From Phycisphaerae bacterium (GTDB taxonomy: Bacteria > Planctomycetota > Phycisphaerae > UBA1845), in NCBI GenBank assembly GCA_024102815.1, contig JAGFJJ010000048.1, positions 248,001-312,000 of the forward strand: DNA of 64,000 nucleotides. The letters run 5' to 3'. The notes beneath the pieces were generated by a model. That model worked only from the letters and a program-made list of their open reading frames with translations. It was not told the origin of the DNA and ran no database searches. Positions 33,294-45,883 of this stretch are shown piece by piece. Position 1 is the stretch's first letter. Every line of letters starts with the position of its first letter. The translations under genes and the position numbers were made by a program.

Positions 33294-33626
33294 TCGGGGT
33301 TCTCCCTCAGAAAGACGCTCGCCCTTGCCACCGCCTCCACCTTCTCCAATACCAATCCAATCCTGGACAATCGCTTCATATCGCCGTTAGCCAAATTCCC
33401 CAAAGCTCCATCCAGTAGCCTTTTTCCCATGATCTGCGCGAAAACAGGGAGGATTTTTCCCCAAAAATCGGGGGCGCTCACTTTGCGCGCACATTCGACT
33501 GAGCGCCCATGCGCGTTATTACCTATGACAGGACCCACCGGCCGGGGACGAGTGGAACGCCCCAGACCATCGGCCGGTGCCCGCGACCGACGCGCCCGGT
33601 CGCCCACCACTACCCCTCGTGTGCCG
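33294..33626. other. Region upstream of the phage-like module
   Basis: About 330 bases. It holds an inverted repeat (GGGCGCTCA at 33472-33480, TGAGCGCCC at 33500-33508) that could form a hairpin or operator. An open frame runs through it into the terminase; ATG codons at 33525 and 33627 compete as starts. No small-terminase gene or repressor is visible. Confidence 0.4.
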
Positions 33627-34991
33627 ATGGCTCATCCCACACCACCTCCCGAACCCGCTCGTCCCCGGCCTATCATTCCTCTCCTGGACTACCAGCGCGC
33701 CGACATCGAATCCCATGCCCGCTTCCGCTGGAACTGCTGGGCGCGCCAGACTGGCAAAAGTTTTACCAAATCCCTGCGACGCATCTTGCGCGGACTGACG
33801 CGCCGCCGGAATCAGATCTTCCTCTCCGCCGGTGAGCGCCAGAGCCGCGAACTCATGCTCAAAGCCCGACAACACTGCCAGGCGCTCAAAATCGTCGCTG
33901 ACTTCCACGACCGCGCCTGGTTCCGCGATCTGCGGATCCGGCAGATGGAAATCACGCTTCCCGGTGGCGTACGCGTCATCGGCCTGCCCGCCAACCCCCA
34001 CACCGCCCGCGGCTACACCGGCGACGTCCTCCTCGACGAGTTCGCCATGCACGCCCACGATCGCGAAATCTGGGCCTCCATCTTCCCCTCGCTCCTCCGC
34101 GGCGGCGGCGAACTGGACATCGCCTCCACGCCCAAGGGGCGCGGCAATCTCTTCTACCGCCTCCGCGAGAATCCCCGCTTCTCCACCAGCACCGTCACCC
34201 TCCCGCAGGCCGTCGCCGCCGGACTCGACGCCGATCCCGAACAGATGCGCCAGGCCATGGACGACGACCTTCTCTTCCGCCAGGAGTTCCTCTGCGAATT
34301 CGTTGACGAAGCCACGGCCTTCCTCACCTACGACCAGATCGCCGCCTGTGTCGACGACCATCTCTCGCTCGCCGATTCCCCTTCCTCGCTATTCGACGAT
34401 CCCCGCGAACTATTCGTCGGCGTGGACGTCGGCCGCAAGCGCGACCTGACCGTTCTGTGGGTCCTGGCCCGATCACCGCAGCCACGAATCGCACGGAGCG
34501 AAAGCGACCTCCACGATACGCTCGCCACCGTCGCCCTCTTTGAACTTTCTGCCGCACCCTTCCGCGCCCAGTCGGCCTTGCTCTCCGAAATTCTCTCCAT
34601 CCGTCGCGTGCGCCGCTGCGCCATCGACGCCGGCGGACTGGGCATGCAGCTCGCCGAAGACGCCGCCGATCGCTTCGGCCGCCACCGCGTGGAAACCGTA
34701 ACGTTCACTCCCGGATTGAAGTCGCAGATCGCCGCCGGACTGCGCATCGCCGTGGAAAACGCCCGCATCCGCATTCCCGCCGACGAACGCATCCGCAATG
34801 ACTGGCACTCCGTCGAGCGGACCGTTACCGCCGGCGGGCACTTTCGACTCGACGCCAAACGAAGCGAAGGAAGTCACGCCGACCGCTTCTGGGCGGCCGC
34901 GTTGGCCGTCCACGCCGCGGCACTCTCCACCGGACCCCCGGAAGGCGCCGTCAGCGCCACAACCCCCTTCGCCCGCGATGGAGCATGGTGA
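33627..34991 (+). CDS. Phage terminase large subunit, Mu gp28-like
   Basis: 454 residues from the ATG at 33627 (or 488 from 33525). The ATPase part has a Walker A-like RQTGKSF motif near residue 45 and a Walker B VLLDEFAMH near 140. The nuclease part begins VGVDVGRKRD with conserved acidic residues, then CAIDAGGLG and HADRFWAAALA. It should pump and cut DNA into proheads at the portal. First gene of the structural module. The low-complexity N-terminal stretch upstream of IPLLDYQRADI makes the start uncertain. No partner small terminase is seen. Confidence 0.88.
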   Translation: MAHPTPPPEPARPRPIIPLLDYQRADIESHARFRWNCWARQTGKSFTKSLRRILRGLTRRRNQIFLSAGERQSRELMLKARQHCQALKIVADFHDRAWFRDLRIRQMEITLPGGVRVIGLPANPHTARGYTGDVLLDEFAMHAHDREIWASIFPSLLRGGGELDIASTPKGRGNLFYRLRENPRFSTSTVTLPQAVAAGLDADPEQMRQAMDDDLLFRQEFLCEFVDEATAFLTYDQIAACVDDHLSLADSPSSLFDDPRELFVGVDVGRKRDLTVLWVLARSPQPRIARSESDLHDTLATVALFELSAAPFRAQSALLSEILSIRRVRRCAIDAGGLGMQLAEDAADRFGRHRVETVTFTPGLKSQIAAGLRIAVENARIRIPADERIRNDWHSVERTVTAGGHFRLDAKRSEGSHADRFWAAALAVHAAALSTGPPEGAVSATTPFARDGAW

Positions 34992-34998
34992 TCTGTAG

Positions 34999-35018
34999 GG
35001 TGCGTCCCCTGACGCACC
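34999..35018. repeat. Short perfect hairpin
   Basis: GGTGCGTC-CCCT-GACGCACC directly after the terminase stop. A degenerate copy lies near 10875-10900. It resembles dispersed intergenic hairpins rather than a terminator, as no T-run follows. Confidence 0.6.
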
Positions 35019-35079
35019 TCTTCTTCGACGTTGGCCAATGCAACCGACAACCGGCAAAGCAAATCCTCGGAGACCATCC

Positions 35080-36399
35080 ATGTCCGTCACATCCTGGTTG
35101 ATGCGTGCAATGAAGAGCCTCACCGCTCCACGACCCAAATCCGGCCGGCTCCTCCTCCCCCGTCCCGAGGACGCACAGCGCGATTACATCTCCGCCGGAC
35201 TGACCCCCGCGCGACTCCTGGCCGTCCTCGCCGAGGCCGACGACGGCTCCCTCGCCGGTCCCATGCAGCTCTTCGAGGAAATGGAGGAAAAAGACGCCCA
35301 CCTCTACTGCGTGGCCAACACGCGGCGTCTGGCGCTGACGGGACTCGAATGGCGCGTGGTCAGCGCCGCCGAGTTCGACGACTCCGTCGATCGCGCCGCG
35401 GCCGACGAAGCCGCCGATTACTGTCGCTCCGTTCTCCGCGCCGTCGACGCGTTCGACGAGATCCTCCAGCACCTTTCCCTGGCCATGGGACGCAACCTCG
35501 CCGTCGCCGAGATCATCTGGGACACCGCCGGCGGCGAATTCCGCCCCGTGGATTTCGTCCCCGTCGACTTCACCCGCCTCGCCTTCGACCACCTCAATCG
35601 CCTTCGCATCCTCACCGAAGACGAACCGCGCGACGGCATCGAACCGCCGCCGCTCAAGTTCATCGTCCACAGCCCCCACTGCGTCTGCGGACACCCCCAG
35701 CGCGGCGGACTGCTCCGCGTCACGGCCATGCTCTACCTCGCCAAGAACCTGGCACTGAAGGACTGGCTCACCTTCGCCGAGCTCTTCGGCATGCCCGTGC
35801 GCATCGCCCGCTACGACCCCGGCACCACCGCCGAGGAGAAACGCGACTTGCTCAACATGCTCGAATCGCTGGGCAGCGCGGCCGCGGGCATCTTCAGCCG
35901 CGCCGTCGAACTCCAGTTCGTCGAGACCGCTCGCGGCAGCGCCGGCGCCCCCTACCAGCGCCTCATCGAGTTCATCAACCGCGAAATGAGCAAGGCCTGG
36001 CTGGGCCAGACGCTCACCACGGACATCTCCGGCCAAAGCGGCTCGATCGCCGCCAGCCAGGTTCACGACGACGTGCGCCGCGATCTGCTCTTTGACGACA
36101 TCCGCCGCGAGGGCCGCACCATCCGCCGCGACATCCTCCGCCCCATGACGCTCTTCCGCTTCGGACCCGACGCCCCCGTCCCCCACTTCCGCCGCCGCAC
36201 GCGCACCGTCGGCAGCGCCGCCGAACTCGTGCAGATTCTCGACACGGCCGTCAACCGCCTGGGTGTCCGCGTCCCCGAGGACTGGGCCCAGGACGTCCTC
36301 GGTCTGCCCCTCACAAGTGACAAGAACATGGCACTTCGCGGTGCCGGAGCCCCGAAAACCGCGATGACCGCCCCGCAAACCGCGTCCGCGACCTCATGA
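35080..36399 (+). CDS. Phage portal protein, DUF935 (Mu gp29-like)
   Basis: 439 residues from the ATG at 35080, with GGAG eight bases upstream. DUF935 features include QLFEEMEEKDAHLYCVANTRRLALTGLEW, AEIIWDT, FVPVDFTRLAFDH and LAKNLALKDWLTFAELFGMPVRIARY. The last links the conserved stem region. The portal forms the head vertex for DNA entry. Its stop overlaps an ATG of the protease frame, but the protease probably starts later. Confidence 0.92.
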   Translation: MSVTSWLMRAMKSLTAPRPKSGRLLLPRPEDAQRDYISAGLTPARLLAVLAEADDGSLAGPMQLFEEMEEKDAHLYCVANTRRLALTGLEWRVVSAAEFDDSVDRAAADEAADYCRSVLRAVDAFDEILQHLSLAMGRNLAVAEIIWDTAGGEFRPVDFVPVDFTRLAFDHLNRLRILTEDEPRDGIEPPPLKFIVHSPHCVCGHPQRGGLLRVTAMLYLAKNLALKDWLTFAELFGMPVRIARYDPGTTAEEKRDLLNMLESLGSAAAGIFSRAVELQFVETARGSAGAPYQRLIEFINREMSKAWLGQTLTTDISGQSGSIAASQVHDDVRRDLLFDDIRREGRTIRRDILRPMTLFRFGPDAPVPHFRRRTRTVGSAAELVQILDTAVNRLGVRVPEDWAQDVLGLPLTSDKNMALRGAGAPKTAMTAPQTASATS

Positions 36400-36464
36400 T
36401 CGCGCCGAAGCACCCGTCCGAGCGCGCGCCCTGGCGCGTTCTTACTTGTGGAGGAACCAAGCCG

Positions 36465-37610
36465 ATGACCCCGACGCCAACAAACTCCTGGACCAACCTG
36501 ACGGAGTCTCTACCGATGACCCAGTCCGCCTGCCTCTGCGATGCAACGCTCCTTCGCGGCGTGATGCGCTCCGCCGACATCGGCGGCGACACGCTTCCCC
36601 GCCGCGTCCTGCTCGCCCCCTGGGGCGAAGTCGAAAGCACCAACGGCAACTTCCTCGTCGACGACCAGGCGGCCGACCTCACCGTGACCGCCTTCCGCGA
36701 TCACGGCACCGACCTGCCCATCGACTACGAGCACCAGACGCTCGGCGGCGCGTACGCCTCGCCCTCCGGACAGGCCCCGGCCGCGGGCTGGATCAAGAAC
36801 CTCGATGCTGAACCCGCGCTGGGCATCTTCGCCGAGATCGAATGGACCGAGGCCGCCCGGCGCCTCATCGCCGACCGCCAGTACCGTTACCTCTCGCCCG
36901 TGGCCATCATCCGCCGCGCGGATCGACGCCTCGTCGCCCTGCACTCCGCGGCGCTCACCAACAAGCCGGCCATCATCGGCATGCAGCCCATCGTCAACCG
37001 GGATGGCGACGCCGGAAACAGTGACAACGCATTGGCACAAGTCTGCGCCATGGAGGAGCCCCCCGGCAGGATCATTCCGCGCGATGACGCGCTCGACCCC
37101 GATCGCACGGAAACACCCGACGACGAAGAGACTGATACCAACAGCCCCGACGAACTCGACGGCGATGAATCCGGCACCGACTCTCGGACATCATTCGCCC
37201 GTCTTTGCGCCATGCTCCAACTGCCCGAGTCCACGCCCGCCCATGACGTGCTCGCTGCGGCCGGCCGGCGACTGGCCTTCCTCGACGAGCGCACCCGCCG
37301 CGAGCACGTCCGCCGCCGCGTCGGTGAGGCCATCTGCGCCGGAAAGCTGGTCGAAGCCCAGCGCGCCTGGGCGGAGGCACTGGTCGCCAAGGAAGAGGGA
37401 CTCTTCGACGAGTGGCTGCGTACCGCCCCGGTCGTCGTTGTGCCGGGACGAATTCGGCCCCCGGCCAACGAGGACGCGCACACATCGCGCCGCCATGCCG
37501 TCGCCCGACGGGCAACCTCGGAGTTTCGCGCCTGCCCGGCGCTCGCCCGGATCACCTGCGAGGAAGCCTTCGTCGCCGACGCCCTGCGCGAAACCCTGCC
37601 GTCTCGTTAG
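36465..37610 (+). CDS. Mu I-like prohead protease with scaffold-like C-terminus
   Basis: 381 residues from the ATG at 36465, chosen because GTGGAGG lies ten bases upstream; the frame is open back to 36396. The N-terminal 190 residues match Mu I-type proteases (LAPWGEVESTNGNFLVD, DLPIDYEHQ, AGWIKNL, RYLSPVA and a conserved ALTNKPAI). The C-terminal part is acidic, then helical (HDVLAAAGRRLAFLDERTRREHVRR), as expected for an internal scaffold that Mu encodes within the same gene. It would mature the head shell. Confidence 0.88.
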   Translation: MTPTPTNSWTNLTESLPMTQSACLCDATLLRGVMRSADIGGDTLPRRVLLAPWGEVESTNGNFLVDDQAADLTVTAFRDHGTDLPIDYEHQTLGGAYASPSGQAPAAGWIKNLDAEPALGIFAEIEWTEAARRLIADRQYRYLSPVAIIRRADRRLVALHSAALTNKPAIIGMQPIVNRDGDAGNSDNALAQVCAMEEPPGRIIPRDDALDPDRTETPDDEETDTNSPDELDGDESGTDSRTSFARLCAMLQLPESTPAHDVLAAAGRRLAFLDERTRREHVRRRVGEAICAGKLVEAQRAWAEALVAKEEGLFDEWLRTAPVVVVPGRIRPPANEDAHTSRRHAVARRATSEFRACPALARITCEEAFVADALRETLPSR

Positions 37611-37869
37611 TGGTCGGGTGGCATGGCCAAGCGCGTCCGGCGAAGCCGGACGTAGCGCCGCCATGCCCTTGCGAGAACACCATGCCGAGCGATGAATGAC
37701 ATTGGCGGAAACAGGAGTTGGTTGGTGATCCAATATCTTTTTGAGCATGGTCGTTCAACGGGCGTTTCGCATGGCGGCGCCCGCCAGCGGCGGGCTTGGC
37801 CATGCCACCCGGTCGGACTCCGCTCGTTCAAGACTTTGACAATCCAGTTCTATTCGAGGTGACACGAAA
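37611..37869. repeat. Pair of inverted palindromic repeats (BIME-like) inside the phage module
   Basis: CGGGTGGCATGGCCAAGC at 37615-37632 is repeated exactly in inverted form at 37794-37811. The inner arms GCCGCCATGC (37657-37666) and GCATGGCGGC (37769-37778) are also inverted copies. Each half carries its own small hairpin (GTCCGGC-GAA-GCCGGAC at 37635-37651 on the left). Together they make a structured element of about 200 bases. The rest of the spacer holds the Shine-Dalgarno GAGGTGAC for the next gene. Confidence 0.85.
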
Positions 37870-38634
37870 ATGGCACTCACTGCAAACCGCAACGTCGATC
37901 ATTACGTGGATCAGGAACTCCGCACGCTGGCCCTGGCCGACAACGTCTACGTGTTCCGCGGCGCCCTGCTGGGACTCTCGCCGACCGGATACGCCCGCCC
38001 GCTCGTCGCCGGCGACCGCTTCGTCGGCCTGGCCTACGAGGAAACGGACAACATCGGCGGCGCCGCCGGAGACCTCTCCGTCCGCGTGTACACCAGGGGT
38101 GATTTCGAACTGCCGCTCCCCGGCGCGACCTTCCCCGACATCGGCCGGCCCGTCTTCGCCTCCGCCGACGACACACTCACCTTCGCCGCTGCGGGCAACT
38201 CCTGCGTCGGCATCGTCCAGGACGTGCTCGACGCCGGAGAGATCATCCTCCGCCTCGACACCACCCAGCGGCCGGTCAAGACGATCACCTACGAGGTGGC
38301 CGATCTCTCCGCCGGACAGGACGTCGCCGCCCGGGCCATCCACAGCTTCGGCGTCGAAGGCTGGATCGTCGCGGCACGAGTCGTGAACGAGTCCACCGCG
38401 GCCGCGGGCATCGACGCTTCGAATACGTGTGTCGTGCAGCTCGCCACCGGCGCCGGCGTCGTGGCCACCAAGACTTTTGACAACACGACGCCCTTCCCCG
38501 CCGCGAACGCGTCCACGTCAATGGGAACCATCAGCAACGCCCACGCCCCGGCCGGCACCGTGCTGACCCTCGCCGTGACCAACGGCTCGACCGCCAACCC
38601 CGGCCCCTTCCACGTCTGCGTCGATTACGTTTGA
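37870..38634 (+). CDS. DUF2190-family capsid decoration/cement-like protein
   Basis: 254 residues, ATG preceded by GAGGTGAC. The N-terminal 140 residues match DUF2190 (NVYVFRGALLGLSP, RPLVAGDRFVGLAYEETDN, SVRVYTRGDFELPLPG). In related phages this protein coats or stabilises the shell. The C-terminal 110 residues are an extra Ala/Thr/Val-rich beta region not found in short DUF2190 proteins. It precedes the capsid gene by 63 bases. Confidence 0.82.
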   Translation: MALTANRNVDHYVDQELRTLALADNVYVFRGALLGLSPTGYARPLVAGDRFVGLAYEETDNIGGAAGDLSVRVYTRGDFELPLPGATFPDIGRPVFASADDTLTFAAAGNSCVGIVQDVLDAGEIILRLDTTQRPVKTITYEVADLSAGQDVAARAIHSFGVEGWIVAARVVNESTAAAGIDASNTCVVQLATGAGVVATKTFDNTTPFPAANASTSMGTISNAHAPAGTVLTLAVTNGSTANPGPFHVCVDYV

Positions 38635-38640
38635 CCGCGT

Positions 38641-38676
38641 CTATTCGCGTTCTTCCTATTGCCTATTGCCTGTTGC
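38641..38676. repeat. Tandem TTGCC-type repeat before the capsid gene
   Basis: Short tandem units (CCTATTGCCTATTGCCTGTTGCC) just upstream of the capsid ribosome-binding site. A related block lies at 40333-40362 before another gene of the module. They resemble dispersed host repeats. Confidence 0.6.
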
Positions 38677-38697
38677 CTTTCTTCAAGGAGCCTCATC

Positions 38698-39621
38698 GTG
38701 GCCATTATCAATACCGGACTGCTCACCAAGGGCCTGCGCAGCGAGTTCTTCAACCGCTTCGAGGCCGCAAAGACGTACTACCAGGATCTGAGCACGCGCA
38801 TCCAGTCGAACAGCGATCAGGAGACTTATCGCTGGCTGGGATCCGTGCCGCGCATGCGCGAGTGGGGAACCGGCCGCGTCGCCCGCGGCATCGGCACCGA
38901 GTCCTACTCCGTGGAGAACCTCAAGTACGAAGCCACGCTGGAGGTCGACCGTGATGAAATCTCCGACGACAAGACCGGCCAGATCCGCATCCGCGTCGGC
39001 GAGCTCGCCGCCCGCGCCGCGACGCACAAGGACTATCTGCTCGCCCAATTGCTCGTGAGCGGCCACGCCTCCGGTTTCCACGGCTACGACGGCGTGCCCT
39101 TCTTCGGCACCACCCACGTTTCGGGAGCATCGGGCGCACAGTCGAACCTGATCGGCGCCGACGCGGTGGAGCCGGACAACGTCACCCCGGCCGAGTTCAA
39201 GCTGGCGATAAAGAGCGCCATCGGCGCCATGCTCGGCTTCAAAGACGACCAGGGCGACCCCATGTCCATCTCGGCCACGGGCCTGGTCTGCGTCGTGCCG
39301 CCGCTGTTGCACATGACCGCCCTCGAAGCGGTCAGCGCCACGATCCTCAATAACACGTCCAACGTGCTCGAGGGCATCGCCCGAGTTGTTCCCTGCGCCT
39401 GGCTGACCGACGTGACCGAGTGGTACCTGCTGAAGACCGACGGCGTGGTCCGCCCCTTCATTTTCCAGGACCGCGAGCCCGTCGAATTCACCGCCCTTAC
39501 CGAGAGCAGCGACGAGGGCTTCCGCCGCGAGAAATTCCTCTACGGCGTCCGCGCCCGATACCGCATGGCCTACGGCTACTGGCAGTTCGCCGTGCGCGTG
39601 AAATTCAGCACGCCAACGTAG
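38698..39621 (+). CDS. Major capsid protein, Mu gpT-like
   Basis: 307 residues from the GTG at 38698, which has AAGGAG seven bases upstream; the product begins MAIINTGLLTKGLRSEFFNRF. Mu T-family signatures follow: YRWLGSVPRMREW, ATLEVDRDEISDDKTGQIRIR, DGVPFFGTTH and VVPPLLHMTALEAV. It forms the icosahedral shell with the HK97 fold. It is intact and of normal length, which argues that the module is still maintained. Confidence 0.93.
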   Translation: MAIINTGLLTKGLRSEFFNRFEAAKTYYQDLSTRIQSNSDQETYRWLGSVPRMREWGTGRVARGIGTESYSVENLKYEATLEVDRDEISDDKTGQIRIRVGELAARAATHKDYLLAQLLVSGHASGFHGYDGVPFFGTTHVSGASGAQSNLIGADAVEPDNVTPAEFKLAIKSAIGAMLGFKDDQGDPMSISATGLVCVVPPLLHMTALEAVSATILNNTSNVLEGIARVVPCAWLTDVTEWYLLKTDGVVRPFIFQDREPVEFTALTESSDEGFRREKFLYGVRARYRMAYGYWQFAVRVKFSTPT

Positions 39622-39826
39622 GGAAATTGCGGAATGCGGAACTGAGAGTTGGGAATGCGGAAAGTGGCCTCCGAATCTATGCCGGAACGTTGGTTGATCC
39701 GCGAGTCACAAACGCATTTCACGAGGAATCGCTCTCATCTTCCTGCTCAACATTCTTAATTCCGCATTCTGGGCAAACCACTCTCGTTGCGTTGTTGCAG
39801 ACCGACCCCCTGAAGGATGTTCCACC
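39622..39826. repeat. Intergenic repeat block between capsid and DUF1320 genes
   Basis: Contains GCGGAATGCGGAACT and GGGAATGCGGAAAGT near 39630-39665 and an inverted partner (CAACATTCTTAATTCCGCAT) near 39750. These match the GAATG/CATTC family flanking the element at 41811-42049. No gene seen. Confidence 0.6.
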
Positions 39827-40267
39827 ATGTCTTACATCACCAACGCCATGATCGAGCAGCGCCTGGGTCACGCAGCCTATGTGCAGCTCGGCGACGACGA
39901 CGGCGACGGCGTCGCCGATACGCCCGTGGTCGACGAGGTCCGCCTGGCGGCCGAGGGCGAGGTCAACAGCCGACTCGCCCTCCGCTACGCGGTGCCCATC
40001 GACACGACGGGGCGGCCGGAGCTCGCCGGGCTCCTCGCCTCCATCACCCTGGACATTGCGGAATACCGCCTGCGGGTCCGCCGCCCGCCGGTGCCCGAAG
40101 CCGCGGAACGCCTCTATGCCCAAGCCGTCGCCTGGCTGACGGACGTCGCGAAGGGAGCCTTCAGCCTTCCCGTCGGCGGACTTCCCGGCCCGAACGCCAC
40201 AGGTGACATCTCCGCGTCACTCGGTGAGGAGCGCATCTTCACCCGCGAGGAGCTGGACGGTTTCTGA
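39827..40267 (+). CDS. DUF1320 protein, Mu gp36-like head-tail connector
   Basis: 146 residues. DUF1320 signatures: SYITNAMIEQRLGHAAYVQLGDDDGDGVAD, a VVDEVRLAAEGEVNSRLALRYAVPID and LDIAEYRLRVRRPP. In Mu-like phages this protein follows the capsid gene and probably closes the head. Complete and in the expected position. Confidence 0.88.
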   Translation: MSYITNAMIEQRLGHAAYVQLGDDDGDGVADTPVVDEVRLAAEGEVNSRLALRYAVPIDTTGRPELAGLLASITLDIAEYRLRVRRPPVPEAAERLYAQAVAWLTDVAKGAFSLPVGGLPGPNATGDISASLGEERIFTREELDGF

Positions 40268-40332
40268 CGTGAACCTGCCGTTCGTGGAGTTCCTTTCGAC
40301 GTTCGCTCTTTCTTGGGATTTGTGATTTCACT

Positions 40333-40362
40333 ATCGCCTGTTGCCCGTTGCCTATTGCCTTC
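40333..40362. repeat. Tandem TTGCC-type repeat
   Basis: CGCCTGTTGCCCGTTGCCTATTGCC precedes the next gene of the phage module, similar to the block at 38641-38676. Confidence 0.55.
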
Positions 40363-40370
40363 TTCCAACC

Positions 40371-40853
40371 ATGTCCACACCCGACCGAACCACGATCAAA
40401 GCCGCCGTCGATGCCCTGGCGGCCGGACTGCGCAGCGGACTCATCGCCGATCCCCCCACCGCGGCCAAGCCCTTCCGCCGCGTGGAGGTCGGCCTGTCCG
40501 GCGTGCAGGAGTATCCCCGCCCGTTTCTGACGCTCACGCTCACCCGCGTTCGACCCATCGGCTCGGTCGACGGCGACCGGCTCATGCGCGTCTCGCTGAG
40601 CCTCCGTGTGGTCAGTGACGTCAACAACGGCGGCGTGCACGACGCCCTGCTCGATCGCATCGCCGCCGTGGATGACCATCTCGATGGCCTGGTGCAAGCG
40701 GGCTTGATCGAAGGCGCGGACGGACTCGACGACCGCGAGTGGCAACTGGACTACCCCAAGACGACGGCCGCGGCACGCGTCGCGTCGGCCACGTCGACGA
40801 TGTCCTTCGTCGTCCGCGTCGAACGGTTCTTCAATCGCGCGGGCGCTTCGTGA
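40371..40853 (+). CDS. Mu gp37-like head/tail-joining candidate
   Basis: 160 residues from the ATG at 40371. The position directly after the DUF1320 gene and the pattern (N-terminal helix TTIKAAVDALAAGLR, then beta strands PFLTLTLTRVRPI and MRVSLSLRVVSD, then a helix DALLDRIAAVDDHL) fit the DUF1834/gp37 or tail-terminator class. No decisive motif, so the assignment rests on position and fold-like pattern. Confidence 0.5.
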   Translation: MSTPDRTTIKAAVDALAAGLRSGLIADPPTAAKPFRRVEVGLSGVQEYPRPFLTLTLTRVRPIGSVDGDRLMRVSLSLRVVSDVNNGGVHDALLDRIAAVDDHLDGLVQAGLIEGADGLDDREWQLDYPKTTAAARVASATSTMSFVVRVERFFNRAGAS

Positions 40854-40872
40854 ACGAAGAGGAAATCGACCC

Positions 40873-41319
40873 ATGATCTGGATACTCGCCACGCGCGGAG
40901 CATCGACCAGGCTGCGGCAGTCGCCGTTCGCGGAGACGGCGATCGCCGGCGTGCAGGGCGTGGTCTACCGGCCGGGCATCGCGCCGGTGGTCAACTCCGG
41001 CGAGGACGGATCCGCCGGACCGGCCGGAACGTTTGTTCGCGGCGTGCATCGCATTTCCGGCGTACTGTTCTCCTACGACGGAAACGTCGCGGAAACACTC
41101 TTCGCCATCACGGAGCCGATCGATCTCATCGTCCGCTACACGGCCAGCGGTGAGTCGCGCAAACGCGTGCTCAAGGACGTGCTGTTCATCGGTGACGCCG
41201 TGGTAACCGTTCCGCCGCTCAACCGCGGCGAGGCCGAGCTTATCGGCGTCCCTTTCCGCGTGCAGATTCCCGACACGGAAACACTCGCTCAACACGTGGA
41301 AGATCTTCCGGAGAGTTGA
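40873..41319 (+). CDS. Phage module protein of unknown function
   Basis: 148 residues, beta-rich (GVQGVVYRPGIAPVV, FVRGVHRISGVLFSYDG). It begins 20 bases after the previous gene, and its stop lies within a few bases of the next start (GTG at 41322). A structural role is likely from context. It does not look like a tail sheath or tube that I recognise. Confidence 0.65.
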   Translation: MIWILATRGASTRLRQSPFAETAIAGVQGVVYRPGIAPVVNSGEDGSAGPAGTFVRGVHRISGVLFSYDGNVAETLFAITEPIDLIVRYTASGESRKRVLKDVLFIGDAVVTVPPLNRGEAELIGVPFRVQIPDTETLAQHVEDLPES

Positions 41320-41321
41320 TC

Positions 41322-41768
41322 GTGCCGATTGATTCCAACACGCTCATCGCGGCCGCAGCCAGCGCCTTCGCTCAGCAGAGCGCCGACCTGCTCGCCCAGC
41401 AGGCCCGTCAGCCGATGATCGTCTACGTCCGCCGGGCGACGGGAAGCGGCGACATCGACCACACGTTCGCACTCGATCGGCCGTTCCGGTTGGTGTTCAT
41501 TCGGTGCCACTTTGTTGGCACGACACAGCGGGCGGCCATGACCATCGAACTGGATGCACAGGCCGGCGCGGCCTACGACGCCGAGCTTTACGTGATTCGA
41601 ACCGCCGGCCCGGGACGGGACGTGTACCTTCGCGTGACGGCGGACGAGGCGGCCGAGCCGTCGCCGTGGACGTTTCAGACCGGTGACGCCCTGCGCCTGC
41701 GCTGGACCAATCCCGACCCCGGCTCCATTACCTGGGGCGTGGAGGTAGGCATGGCGCTGACGGGATAA
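41322..41768 (+). CDS. Phage module protein of unknown function
   Basis: 148 residues from the GTG at 41322, with GGAG nine bases upstream. A short N-terminal helix (TLIAAAASAFAQQSADLLAQQ) is followed by a beta-sandwich-like region (FRLVFIRCHFVGTTQRAAMTIELDA, VYLRVTADEA). Probably a structural or accessory particle protein. Confidence 0.6.
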   Translation: MPIDSNTLIAAAASAFAQQSADLLAQQARQPMIVYVRRATGSGDIDHTFALDRPFRLVFIRCHFVGTTQRAAMTIELDAQAGAAYDAELYVIRTAGPGRDVYLRVTADEAAEPSPWTFQTGDALRLRWTNPDPGSITWGVEVGMALTG

Positions 41769-42094
41769 GCAGCTCAAAGGCGTCACGGAAACGCACGACC
41801 GTGAATGACAAGAATGCGGAATGTTGAATGGTGAATGCGGAATGAAGACAAGAAAGCCAGACCCTGGGGGTGGCCCACGGCTTCAGCCGTGGGGAAGCGA
41901 TCATGTCCTCGCGGCGTCGGACGCCGTGCGCTATCGCGCCCCCACCCCTGAAGGGGTGGGCCACCCGGCACATGTTGAGTGAGGGGCTTCGCTATTCGTG
42001 CTCCGCCACTCCGAATTCCGCATTCTGCATTCACCATTCAACATTCTTGCTTGACTGAGACCCAGCGAAATCATCTGACTCCGGATGCCCTGCT
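41769..42094. repeat. Nested inverted-repeat element in the phage module
   Basis: ATGTTGAATGGTGAATGC (41821-41838) recurs inverted at 42027-42044. Inside it GGGTGGCCCAC (41868-41878) recurs inverted at 41956-41966, each with a local hairpin (CCACGGCTTCAGCCGTGG and CACCCCTGAAGGGGTG types). This is a MITE- or BIME-like insert of about 240 bases with no gene in it. Confidence 0.8.
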
Positions 42095-42688
42095 ATGCCC
42101 CTGACCGATCACAGTGACAGCATCGTGACACGCAATCTCCTCGTCGAGGATCTGCTGACGCTGGGCGACAACACGCCCCTGCACGTGCCGGAGCTATCGG
42201 CCGCCGCCCCCACGCCCCCCGCCGGTACGGTCGCGGTCTATGCCAAATCCGACGGACATCTTTACGCCCGGGATGATTCCGGCACGGAGCGGGATCTTTC
42301 GGGCGCCGTTCCCTCGGCCTTGCGCACCGTGGGCAAGATGCTTTACATCGAATGGCCCGCCACCGGCGACGCTTTTCCGCTCGCGTTTCTGCCCGCGGAC
42401 GTGACCTTCGTGCGCGTTCGCGGCGTGACCGATACGGGCACGGTGGACTTTCAGATCGAGCGTCGGGCGACGAACACGCCGGGTTCGGGCGGGACGAACG
42501 TGTTGTCTTCTGCGTTGCAGGCCACGTCGGCCGGGGCGTCCACGACGTCCTTCGCCGACGGCGGAGCGGTCGCCGCGGGACAGTGGCTTTACTTCGTGGC
42601 TTCGGCGACGAGCGGTTCACCGACCAGGCTCTGGGTTGCCCTGGAGTACACGGTCGACGAGGCCCAGGACATCCTTTCTCGTTCTTGA
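42095..42688 (+). CDS. Fibre-like phage module protein
   Basis: 197 residues. The N-terminal part (IVTRNLLVEDLLTLGDNTPLHVPEL, then GTVAVYAKSDGHLYARDDSGTERDL) matches the collar segment common in phage tail-fibre and receptor-binding proteins. The rest is a beta sandwich rich in Thr, Ser and Gly. It suggests an exposed appendage, although no tail genes are seen. Confidence 0.6.
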   Translation: MPLTDHSDSIVTRNLLVEDLLTLGDNTPLHVPELSAAAPTPPAGTVAVYAKSDGHLYARDDSGTERDLSGAVPSALRTVGKMLYIEWPATGDAFPLAFLPADVTFVRVRGVTDTGTVDFQIERRATNTPGSGGTNVLSSALQATSAGASTTSFADGGAVAAGQWLYFVASATSGSPTRLWVALEYTVDEAQDILSRS

Positions 42689-42726
42689 TTCATCCATGTC
42701 CATCGATCGAATCTTGGGAGTTGAAC

Positions 42727-43209
42727 ATGCCTGGCGGACCGTTGTTTCCTTCGAGTGCCGTGCCCGACACATCGGGCGAAGTCTTTCCGGTGGTTCACGC
42801 CGCGGGCGGCGGCTATCGCGAGGGTCTGGGCGTCATCGGCGGTCCCACGGCCGACCGAATCTGGCACCTGGAATTCGACCTGCCGCCGGCACTTCCATCC
42901 GGCGTTTGCCGGCTCGTACTTGTGGTCGTGGCCGATGCCGCATCGGGCGCGGCCAAGGTTAATCCCAAGTGGACGGCGATCGATCCCTCCGCGGGTGACA
43001 ACGCCTTCACGGCATCGCGCCTGCCCGAGGGCACGACCACGCTCACCTGGTCCGCGGGCCACGAAAACGACGACAAGCTCGCATCAGTCGTGCTTGATGC
43101 CACGAGCTTGACACCCGGCGGAACGGTGGTGATGGACCTAGTCTTCGAAGCGTCCGGCTGGACGCTGGCCGTCGAATCCACCTGGAAAGCATATCTGATC
43201 TGGTCGTAG
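42727..43209 (+). CDS. Beta-rich phage module protein
   Basis: 160 residues from the ATG at 42727, GGGAG six bases upstream. Beta strands dominate (WHLEFDLPPALPSGVCRLVLVVVADA, GGTVVMDLVFEASGWTLAVES), compatible with a jelly-roll fibre-head or decoration domain. No family recognised. It lies between two other surface-type genes. Confidence 0.6.
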   Translation: MPGGPLFPSSAVPDTSGEVFPVVHAAGGGYREGLGVIGGPTADRIWHLEFDLPPALPSGVCRLVLVVVADAASGAAKVNPKWTAIDPSAGDNAFTASRLPEGTTTLTWSAGHENDDKLASVVLDATSLTPGGTVVMDLVFEASGWTLAVESTWKAYLIWS

Positions 43210-43267
43210 CCGGGCGAAGCCGCAGCACGTGCCGCTCGCTCTCCATTCGCGCTGCCGGGAGGCCCCC

Positions 43268-44047
43268 ATGTCCCTGCTCTTCGATCACGACGCGGAGCAC
43301 GTCTCCATTAATCATGCGTCGCTCGATCGGCTCGACGCCCTGACCCTCATGCTCTGGTACCGGGTCGACAGCGTCGCCGCGTCCGCGAGCTACGCCGCAC
43401 TATCCAAGCTGCTTTCGCCCGGAACCGATCAGCTCTATCTCACTCGGCCGATCTACTTCCCCTACCCTGACGACTGGGTGTTCTATCACCGCCGGACGGT
43501 GACCAGTACGTTTGTGCGAACGAGCGGAAACCTCGTGCAGGCGGGGCGCTGGGAGTGGCTCTGCGTGCTCGACTCGGACGGCGAGGAGCCGGAGATGCTG
43601 CACGCGACACTCACCACGCCGCCGGTCGAGCCCCCCTACCTGGCGCGCACGACCGGCGTCGGCGCGGTACCGGATGATTCCGGACAACCGATGCACATTG
43701 GACGATTGGCGAGCCTGGGTTCGCAGTCGTTCATGGGACGGATCGGGTTTCTCGCGATCTACAACCGGCGAATGGGCCTGTCGGAGGCGAAGGCACACTG
43801 GCGCCGCCCGAGACCCGCTGCCGGATGTGTACACTTCTGCCACGCCGGGTTGCACGGACTGAGTTGGGTCGACCTCTGCGGAGCGGGAAGCCACGGCACG
43901 CCGGCCGGTGGGCCGACGCTCGCGCCACGCGTTCCCCTGGCGATGCCGTTGATGCGGCCCGCGTGGACCGTGCCGTCGACGACGTCCCGCCGCGTGACGC
44001 TCGGAGGATTGGCCACCGCGTCGCCACGGGTCGTGCTCGTGGATTAG
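43268..44047 (+). CDS. LamG/concanavalin-like domain protein ending the phage module
   Basis: 259 residues from the ATG at 43268, preceded by GGGAGG. LamG-type features: LDALTLMLWYRVDS, a WEWLCVLDSDG strand pair, MHIGRLASLGSQSFMGRIGFLAIYNRRM. Such domains bind glycans and occur in phage adhesins. The last 80 residues are Pro/Gly-rich and basic. It is the final gene before the convergent parB. Confidence 0.68.
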   Translation: MSLLFDHDAEHVSINHASLDRLDALTLMLWYRVDSVAASASYAALSKLLSPGTDQLYLTRPIYFPYPDDWVFYHRRTVTSTFVRTSGNLVQAGRWEWLCVLDSDGEEPEMLHATLTTPPVEPPYLARTTGVGAVPDDSGQPMHIGRLASLGSQSFMGRIGFLAIYNRRMGLSEAKAHWRRPRPAAGCVHFCHAGLHGLSWVDLCGAGSHGTPAGGPTLAPRVPLAMPLMRPAWTVPSTTSRRVTLGGLATASPRVVLVD

Positions 44048-44084: not shown

Positions 44085-45086
44085 CTACGACCGGTCGAGG
44101 TCGATCCCGAGGCGCTCGGCGATGCGGTCGAAATCATCCAGGCTGAAGTAGTCGATGACGATCCGGCCGGTCCCCTTCCGCTTTCCCTCCTGGATACGCA
44201 CCTTCGTGCGAAGCGACTGTTCGAATTGGCGTTCGAGTTCTTCGACATGGCGGGAGCGGAATCGTGGCTGCGCGGCCGGTTGCGTCGTACCGGGTTCGGG
44301 ACGGGCGCGCTCGCGGCGGACGATTTCCTCCAAGGCGCGGACGGAGAGTTCGTTGGCGACGGTCGCCTTGGCCAATTCGAGCCGGCGGGCATCCTCGGGG
44401 ATGCCGAGCAGACACCGGGCATGGCCCATGGAGATGGCGCCGCGGGCAACGAGCTGCTGCAAGTCTGGCGATAAATCCAGTATTCTCAGATAGTTAGAAA
44501 CAGTCGAGCGATCTTCGCCCAGGCGGGCGGCCACGTCATCGGGGCGCAGTCCGAAGCGGTCGCAGTACTCGCGGTAGGCGCGGGCGCGGTCGATGGGGTT
44601 GAGATCTTCGCGCTGGATGTTTTCAACAAGCGCTAGTTCGAGCATTTCCTGGTCGGTGGCGTTGCGGATGAGGACGGGAATTTCGGCCAGGCCGGCCTGG
44701 CGGGCGGCGGCGAAGCGGCGCTCGCCGGCGATGATCTGGTAGCGTTCGCCGGACTTGCGGACGGTGACGGGCTGAAGGATGCCGCTTTTTCTTATCGAAT
44801 CAGCCAAAGATGTTATGTCAGAAGCAGCGACGTTCGTCCGTGGTTGGAACGGATTCGGTGAGATGAGCGTAGCGGGCAACATGGCGACGGAAGATGAGGC
44901 CGCAGATCCCTGGCTGGCCGGGATCGGCCTTGGGCTTTCACTGCCCTTGGCCGGCGTTGCGTCCACCGGCGGAGGCGGCGCTGGGTTGGGGACTATGGCT
45001 TCGCGCTGCCCGGGGCTTTCGAGGGTCGTTGAGGAGCCAACCAGGGAGCTGAGCCCCCTGCCGAGCCTTCTTCCTGTTTTGGACAT
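44085..45086 (-). CDS. parB: Chromosome partitioning protein ParB
   Basis: 333 residues from the ATG at 45086. The N-terminal GRGLSSL motif is followed by a Pro/Ser linker. The CTPase/N-engagement motifs are intact: [18 protein letters not shown] near residue 122 and [20 protein letters not shown] near 152. The HTH ([23 protein letters not shown]) and C-terminal dimer domain are present. ParB loads on parS and slides as a CTP clamp. Three parS-like sites lie upstream. No parA gene is adjacent, unlike the usual parAB order. Confidence 0.95.
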
Positions 45087-45179
45087 GGATCGCCTCCGTG
45101 CATGGTTGGATGGACGGTTTACCTGCTGTCGGCGACTTATACGGGCGAAATCCGCGATCTGCAACCCGGAGAGGATTCC

Positions 45180-45195
45180 TGTTTCACGTGGAACG
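45180..45195. promoter_or_regulatory. parS-like site 1
   Basis: TGTTTCACGTGGAACG: 16 bases matching the parS consensus TGTTYCACGTGRAACA at all but the last position. ParB is encoded about 100 bases away. Confidence 0.85.
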
Positions 45196-45257
45196 AGACG
45201 CGCAGGAGACCAATCGGTGGGCACTCCCGAGCAGGAATCAGTCGGGGCGGCCCGTCG

Positions 45258-45273
45258 CGTTTCAAGTGAAACA
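45258..45273. promoter_or_regulatory. parS-like site 2 (imperfect)
   Basis: CGTTTCAAGTGAAACA: two mismatches from consensus (first base and central C to A). Weaker than its two neighbours but in the same cluster. Confidence 0.65.
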
Positions 45274-45334
45274 GGGCTGCAGGAGGATCGAGGCTCTGGC
45301 GTAATTGGAGAGGGCCGGGAATCATGGACCGTCT

Positions 45335-45350
45335 TGTTCCACGTGAAACA
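45335..45350. promoter_or_regulatory. parS-like site 3
   Basis: TGTTCCACGTGAAACA is a full match to the degenerate parS consensus TGTTYCACGTGRAACA. The best of the three sites. Confidence 0.9.
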
Positions 45351-45883
45351 GCGAATATTGGGTGTGCGGAGGGTTGGAGCAGGGCCGTCCCACGGTGAGC
45401 GAGGTTCGCGACACAATCGAATCAGGGCGGGAGGCGAGAGCGATCCGGAGCAGCATGCCGGGCACGACCAACTTCGCCCGATTTGCCGTGAAGCAGCTTG
45501 CGTTGGGTTCGGGTATCCGGCGCAGCGTGACAATCTCTCTGTTGTGGATACTGTTCGCCGGCAGGGACGGTAGGCGGAACGTGAGACTTGGTCTGCGAGC
45601 GAAATTCCGGGACGCTTTGCCGACGTCAAACCGCTGATAAGATAATACGATTTGTTGTTATGGACATACCGGTAGGGCGGAGGGTTCTGGATTCCGGCCT
45701 GCGCGGAATGACCGCATTCCTCGGTTCGCCCGAAGCTGCGACGGTTCTCGAATTCCTGCGGCGCGGTCCGAGGTTTCGGGGAGGCCTCGACGCTTGCAGG
45801 TCCGCGCGAGGCGAAGCTCGCGGCTCGCTGCGAACGAAACAGGGCGGCCAGTAGTAAAGGAATTTAACTGTCTGCCGCGCGGG

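Follow-up and report, generated by a model that had tools for sequence, protein, structure and literature searches.

A domesticated Mu-type head module, probably gene transfer agent-like, retained across an order of Phycisphaerae

A 64,000-nucleotide stretch of the Phycisphaerae bacterium assembly GCA_024102815.1 (contig JAGFJJ010000048.1, positions 248,001 to 312,000; the window hereafter, G000:C48:248001-312000 in our labels for genomes (G), contigs (C), loci (L) and families (f)) contains a module of six Mu-type phage head genes followed by six small genes. That these are domesticated, vertically inherited genes of the 5.09-Mb host genome is strongly supported by their order-wide occurrence, a phylogeny congruent with that of the host, purifying selection, the retention of module parts even after their dispersal, and intact terminase motifs; host-like codon usage and conserved ParB or PTPS-family neighbours point in the same direction. 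The same evidence lends good support to the initial annotation of this DNA, made by eye from the sequence, which had proposed a domesticated, gene transfer agent (GTA)-like or capsid-based particle with surface adhesins. We consider it rather probable that the module, fixed in one Phycisphaerae order, encodes a domesticated particle of GTA-like type that packages DNA and bears adhesins and a stub tail. Its ancestor is best read as a phage that combined a Mu-type head with a non-contractile tail.

Head genes

The head genes of the window are as follows.

33633..34991, + strand: TerL, terminase large subunit (PF03237, 6e-13; PF17289, 2e-12; phrog_5909/phrog_2)
35038..36399, + strand: Mu-type (DUF935) portal (PF06074, 8e-89; phrog_113, 6e-92)
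36396..37610, + strand: Mu I-type head maturation protease with a scaffold region (PF10123, 1e-50; phrog_328)
37870..38634, + strand: DUF2190-type capsid-associated virion protein (phrog_1731, 2e-19; no Pfam match)
38698..39621, + strand: gpT-type major capsid protein (PF10124, 7e-57)
39827..40267, + strand: Gp36/DUF1320 head-tail adaptor (PF07030, 3e-19; phrog_195 'head-tail adaptor', 9e-25)

All six had been seen in the initial annotation, intact and in Mu-like order, and all six were recovered by gene calling and family scans. The TerL open reading frame (ORF) opens at 33429, with its conserved part beginning at about 33666. Walker A is kept in 47 of the 47 TerL sequences that cover this motif, and across 54 TerLs from the order Walker B, motif III and the three nuclease aspartates are likewise conserved, bar one internal deletion. 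The gpT profile matches PDB 8rkc, a phage gpT capsid (2e-36); the protein is 67-77% identical to those of ten other genomes of its family, with a mean column identity of 80% across the eleven. Synteny of the DUF2190-type gene is kept across the order. A tRNA-Ala reported by ARAGORN inside the upstream TerL ORF (33539-33614, - strand) was dropped as probably spurious because Rfam shows no tRNA there.

Occurrence, descent and dispersal

The order corresponds to GTDB order UBA1845 (name inferred), and most of its genomes are metagenome-assembled genomes (MAGs). Order counts refer to 73 genomes of at least 90% completeness, and gene calls outside the window are our own codon-model predictions, which truncate some TerL starts. 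The portal is present in 70 of the 73 genomes, gpT in 68 and TerL in 58; outside family f5, discussed below, TerL is present in 57 of 58. These counts include a few partial or prophage-type matches (e.g. G034, G011). Within the family of the window, 43 of 51 genomes have the portal, as do 29 of the 30 good ones. The module portal usually occurs as one orthologous copy per genome and is spread over >50 genera; elsewhere in the class, most matches are weak and occur sporadically. The locus is thus near-universal in relatives, not missing from them as the initial annotation would have expected of an ordinary recent prophage. Apparent module decay was seen at L210 (G009), L211 (G011) and G104:C7, where the portal is fragmented or partial and gpT undetected. 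One contig labelled Alphaproteobacteria (L108) carries a Phycisphaerae-type module with neighbours as in L103, and probably comes from a mislabelled MAG.

Portal and RpoB distances are correlated across 23 genomes (Mantel r 0.716, p 2e-4), and the two trees have 10 of 20 splits in common, where 0.25 would be expected and at most 3 were obtained in 1,000 label shuffles; they also contain two well-supported conflicts. The initial annotation had suggested comparing synteny and the ratio of non-synonymous to synonymous substitution rates (dN/dS) among relatives. This comparison favours domestication. dN/dS is mostly 0.05-0.27 in close pairs, with the highest values among form B's variable distal genes (see below), and neighbouring host genes are conserved, with ParB 3' of the module in six loci of form A (the window, L061, L062, L064, L078 and L113) and a PTPS-family gene 3' of it in six f2 loci.

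The module is divided in family f3. TerL and portal stand together there as a pair surrounded by host genes, apart from the protease-DUF2190-gpT genes, and both parts are kept. The two are separated by 20 kb in G320, with HisF and other genes between them, or lie on different contigs; in G318 a methionine synthase gene adjoins the TerL-portal unit. The module is also split in G225 and G012. The dispersed halves remain orthologous to their counterparts (E about 1e-195 for the portal and about 1e-200 for TerL). As such dispersal would break a virus and the pieces are nevertheless retained, these families show the module to be maintained by the host rather than by a virus.

Small genes and the tail

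Downstream of the adaptor gene, the six further ORFs noted in the initial annotation were confirmed, the last with a LamG-type domain.

40371..40853, + strand: x1, tail terminator of gpU/p142/Mu type by predicted fold (AlphaFold2; predicted local distance difference test (pLDDT) 84, predicted template modelling score (pTM) 0.79)
40873..41319, + strand: x2, protein of the tail-tube/Dit superfold by predicted fold, a putative stub ring (AlphaFold2; pLDDT 71)
41316..41768, + strand: x3, conserved 150-aa protein, probably beta-rich (43-59% identity in 16 relatives)
42095..42688, + strand: x4, variable, probably beta-rich protein, fibre-like by position (form A family, length 91-401 aa; no Pfam or PHROG match)
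42727..43209, + strand: x5, paralogue or neighbour family of x4, fibre-like by position (clusters with x4; no family match)
43268..44047, + strand: concanavalin/LamG-type domain protein, probable adhesin (PF13385, 5e-8)

The AlphaFold2 models of x1 and x2 were built on alignments of relatives. The x1 model is closest to a DT57C neck chain (Z 13.5), T5 p142 (13.4), the Mu terminator (12.8) and lambda gpU (12.3), and also matches RcGTA chain 6tba_4A (Z 11.6). For x2, tail-tube, Dit or Hcp proteins account for nearly all top structural rows, with Z 9.7 to a tail tube protein (TTP) polymer; as the best Foldseek E-value is 7e-3, the assignment leans on agreement among these rows. The x2 model has the tube/Dit fold, and we make no choice between tube and Dit, given that the fold is shared and in view of this E-value and the pLDDT of 71. 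Sequence-profile searches of x1, x2 and the form-B protein c5 against the PDB gave no significant match. The absence of a tail proposed in the initial annotation, which had called for a fold check on the small genes, therefore stands in part: no tape measure, sheath or full tube gene is present, and x1 and x2 have the folds of a terminator and of a tube or Dit protein. A clear tail-tube homologue, which would have pointed to a prophage, is thus represented by a stub alone.

By position, x3, x4, x5 and the LamG-like gene are probably collar or adhesin parts. A fibre or collar role is suggested for x3, which has a weak match to phrog_31218 (0.0016), and relatives of the LamG-type protein are present in L053, L056, L083 and L086.

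Two forms of the module differ in this region. Form A, that of the window, has x1 and x2; x2 is found in 17 of the 73 genomes, all in the window's family and with a single copy in each. Form B, which belongs to sister lineages and was found in about 31 genomes, has c5 instead, many of them with a hub-like ~700-aa protein and further genes as well, and no genome combines features of both forms at the module. In two related phage contigs (L121, L117; genes named by order, size and weak similarity), the adaptor is followed by neck, terminator, tube, tape measure, Dit-position protein and hub. The N-half of c5 lies in the terminator position and its C-half matches the phage Dit-position protein (hhalign, 99.0%). 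This one protein occupies the stretch that in the phages runs from neck to Dit, and form B has neither tube nor tape measure there. A terminator and a Dit in one polypeptide would leave little room for a tube. Profile comparison of x1 and x2 with the c5 halves gave no match above 30%, and refining the alignments yielded none above 15%. When a single hub or terminator sequence was used as query against viral contigs, it matched only itself, or nothing.

Related phages and prophages

Related real phages are present in IMG/VR (L116-L122). The phage tape-measure profile matches 7 of the 73 genomes, at loci apart from the module, and the phage tube profile matches 5, four of them clearly. These genomes carry additional prophage-like copies and serve here as a control for real prophages. 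The genome of the window itself contains a Mu-like-headed prophage with minor head protein, neck, tube and tape measure (L003, G000:C16:26000-45900). Extra loci in G035, G014 and G023 (L110, L112, L212, L213) have DUF2190 and gpT genes on one strand and, in some, the protease on the other, and L213 has a tape-measure-like gene on the strand opposite DUF2190-gpT; with gpT near or inside the module clade, they are rearranged prophages or another type of element.

A terminase-free module in family f5

In 14 of 15 f5 genomes, a capsid and portal module is kept with no recognisable terminase. In the five loci in which gene content was read (L194-L198; G235, G143, G137, G203 and G148), it consists of portal, GNAT acetyltransferase, protease, DUF2190, gpT, Gp36 and four or five small genes. 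A holin-like membrane protein is among the small genes. Phage sequences lie between f5 and the main module in the gpT tree, which suggests that f5 is an independent, and hence probably a second, domestication.

Locus, flanks and composition

Family scans identified host genes on both sides of the module. To its left lie DUF4097, alanine dehydrogenase/PNT and pntB, and to its right ParB, citrate synthase and a sugar transferase.

44085..45629, - strand: ParB (PF17762/PF02195), host gene adjoining the module, a synteny anchor outside the particle

The initial annotation had described flanks free of integrase, repressor, lysis, sheath and tape-measure genes and a host-like composition, and both descriptions hold. 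Scans of the module genes and nearest flanks gave no match to any of these five types of family, and transposition genes were absent among the families matched there; a flanking integrase would have pointed to a prophage. The GC content is 0.660 in the module and 0.636 in the rest of the window, and the correlation of relative synonymous codon usage (RSCU) for the module, 0.894, falls within the 95% range of same-size host gene samples (0.850-0.985). Inverted-repeat elements at 41809-42049, 37615-37811 and 39632-39769 lie between module genes and break none; their arms are 16-35 nt long, some nested, and MITE-like (resembling miniature inverted-repeat transposable elements). Short phrases such as TGCCTATTGCC recur ahead of two module genes (38660, 40349).

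Proposed function and alternatives

With motor, portal, protease and capsid complete and under selection, DNA packaging is the most likely use of the module. It encodes no small terminase, no replication or integration genes and no phage genome, so that host DNA would be the probable cargo, and with the tape measure and a stackable tube lost, the particle would be a capsid with a stub in place of a tail. We propose that protease/scaffold, decoration-type protein, capsid and portal would assemble into a head, which the terminase would fill with DNA, probably host DNA, and that adaptor, terminator and stub would then close the filled capsid. Once released, the particle may be attached by its adhesins to a neighbouring cell, to which the DNA would be handed over.

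Several points weigh against a GTA-like particle. The system is known here from its genes, and a stub with no tube provides no obvious DNA injector. Neither a lysis gene nor a small terminase nor a regulator was recognised for the module. A bias towards low-carbon amino acids, known from alphaproteobacterial GTAs including that of Rhodobacter capsulatus (RcGTA), is absent relative to phage homologues: carbon per residue is equal within about 1.5% for TerL/portal, protease, DUF2190, gpT and Gp36, in a comparison with few phage sequences from the same GC range. For the c5 N-half, the assignment as terminator draws on where it lies and on a profile match that is weak (33%, E 5e-4). In f5, DNA packaging by such a motor is an unlikely use, as 14 of the 15 genomes have no recognisable terminase.

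Some of these points would be accommodated if the capsid had been domesticated for something other than gene transfer, as a surface-attached or exported shell for protein or DNA (a nanocompartment, matrix, DNA store or antagonistic particle). We consider this unlikely, though it survives best among the alternatives. It would agree with the missing delivery tail and lysis genes, the lack of a cheap-amino-acid signature, the strong differences in tail-proximal genes between forms A and B, and the retention in f5, apparently independently, of portal, GNAT, protease, capsid and adaptor without a terminase. It does not sit well with terminase ATPase and nuclease residues that are invariant outside f5, with TerL and portal that stay paired even after dispersal, or with the absence of a constant enzyme cargo gene from the main module. 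The last feature, together with a conserved portal and terminase, also distinguishes the module from an encapsulin.

A capsid-forming satellite, comparable to capsid-forming phage-inducible chromosomal islands (cf-PICIs), would make its own heads and borrow tails from helper siphophages. Head, adaptor and terminator are indeed present while the phage-type tube and tape measure are missing, and a tailed prophage with related head genes resides in the same genome, but candidate helpers occur in just about 7 of the 73 genomes, integrase and replication genes were not found in the module and descent is vertical, not mobile. The dedicated stub and adhesin genes, and c5 with its Dit-type half, point instead to a finished short particle, and we regard a satellite as very improbable. 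Least probable of all is an ordinary Mu-like prophage or decaying remnant, which the Mu-like gene order and families, the related IMG/VR phages and the real Mu-like prophage on G000:C16 might suggest, but which is already contradicted by near-universal, mostly single-copy and RpoB-congruent occurrence across >50 genera, dN/dS well below 1, dispersed yet retained parts, no transposase, integrase, repressor, lysis or tape-measure gene seen, and the restriction of ordinary prophages of this kind to about 7 of the 73 genomes.

If the GTA-like reading is true, these planctomycetes make their own phage-like, probably DNA-carrying particles. The loss of tube and tape measure, with a Dit-position domain gene instead in form B, would offer a natural test of a minimal DNA-delivery tail, and terminase-free f5 a built-in comparison for the uses of domesticated phage heads. 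More tentatively, and at somewhat less than an even chance, the module may represent an order-wide, GTA-like lineage of Planctomycetota in which DNA is delivered from a tube-less capsid with an adhesive stub, the Mu-type head having been domesticated at least twice in the order and ending in f5 as a terminase-free set of capsid, portal and acetyltransferase with a use other than packaging.

Comparison with known systems

The head families of the module are those of D3112/JBD93/DMS3-like phages and FP_Mushu, with identities over most of the length of 34-37% for the portal and about 31-33% for gpT. These are complete transposable phages with tails, whereas the module has no phage-type tube or tape measure, and no transposition genes were seen. 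The L003 prophage has related TerL, portal, protease and Gp36, but differs in its minor head protein, neck, tube and tape measure, in a major head protein of another family (phrog_1005), and in its sporadic occurrence in the order.

RcGTA has a full tail, and its chain 6tba_4A is matched by the terminator fold of x1, whereas the module has a Mu gpT-type head and no amino-acid-cost signature. With RcGTA and RcGTA-like clusters the module shares vertical, caudoviricete-derived genes, a host-congruent phylogeny, a terminase and several loci (PMC6821227, PMC9662315). The definition of GTA viriforms lists six features (PMC9662315), among which are packaging of random host DNA, a head too small for its own gene set and delivery to other cells. 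Three of the six can be tested here and are found: proteins derived from caudoviricetes, as judged by similarity; mostly vertical inheritance with host co-diversification (portal/RpoB; ParB and PTPS-family neighbours); and near-universal presence in the order, with split loci in f3, G225 and G012. The other three need experiments. A literature search found no GTA report for the UBA1845 order or for Phycisphaerae.

The FpGTA of Faecalibacterium prausnitzii is encoded by a structural operon of 10.5 kb that includes TerL, portal and capsid and by a second operon elsewhere; its particles, which have been shown, contain about 9 kb of DNA and have no identifiable tails, candidate small terminase, baseplate and lysis genes are known, and it is near-ubiquitous in its host group (PMC12946183). 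Likened to this description through its genes, the module agrees in structural operon, near-ubiquity, split loci and a predicted short or absent tail. FpGTA resides in Firmicutes, whereas the module is order-wide in Planctomycetota, is Mu/gpT-headed and has a stub with terminator and tube folds. FpGTA provides a precedent for GTA-like particles that have little or no tail. The module portal is present in 96% of near-complete genomes of the order, as compared with RcGTA-like clusters in 66% of taxa in their host clade (PMC6821227).

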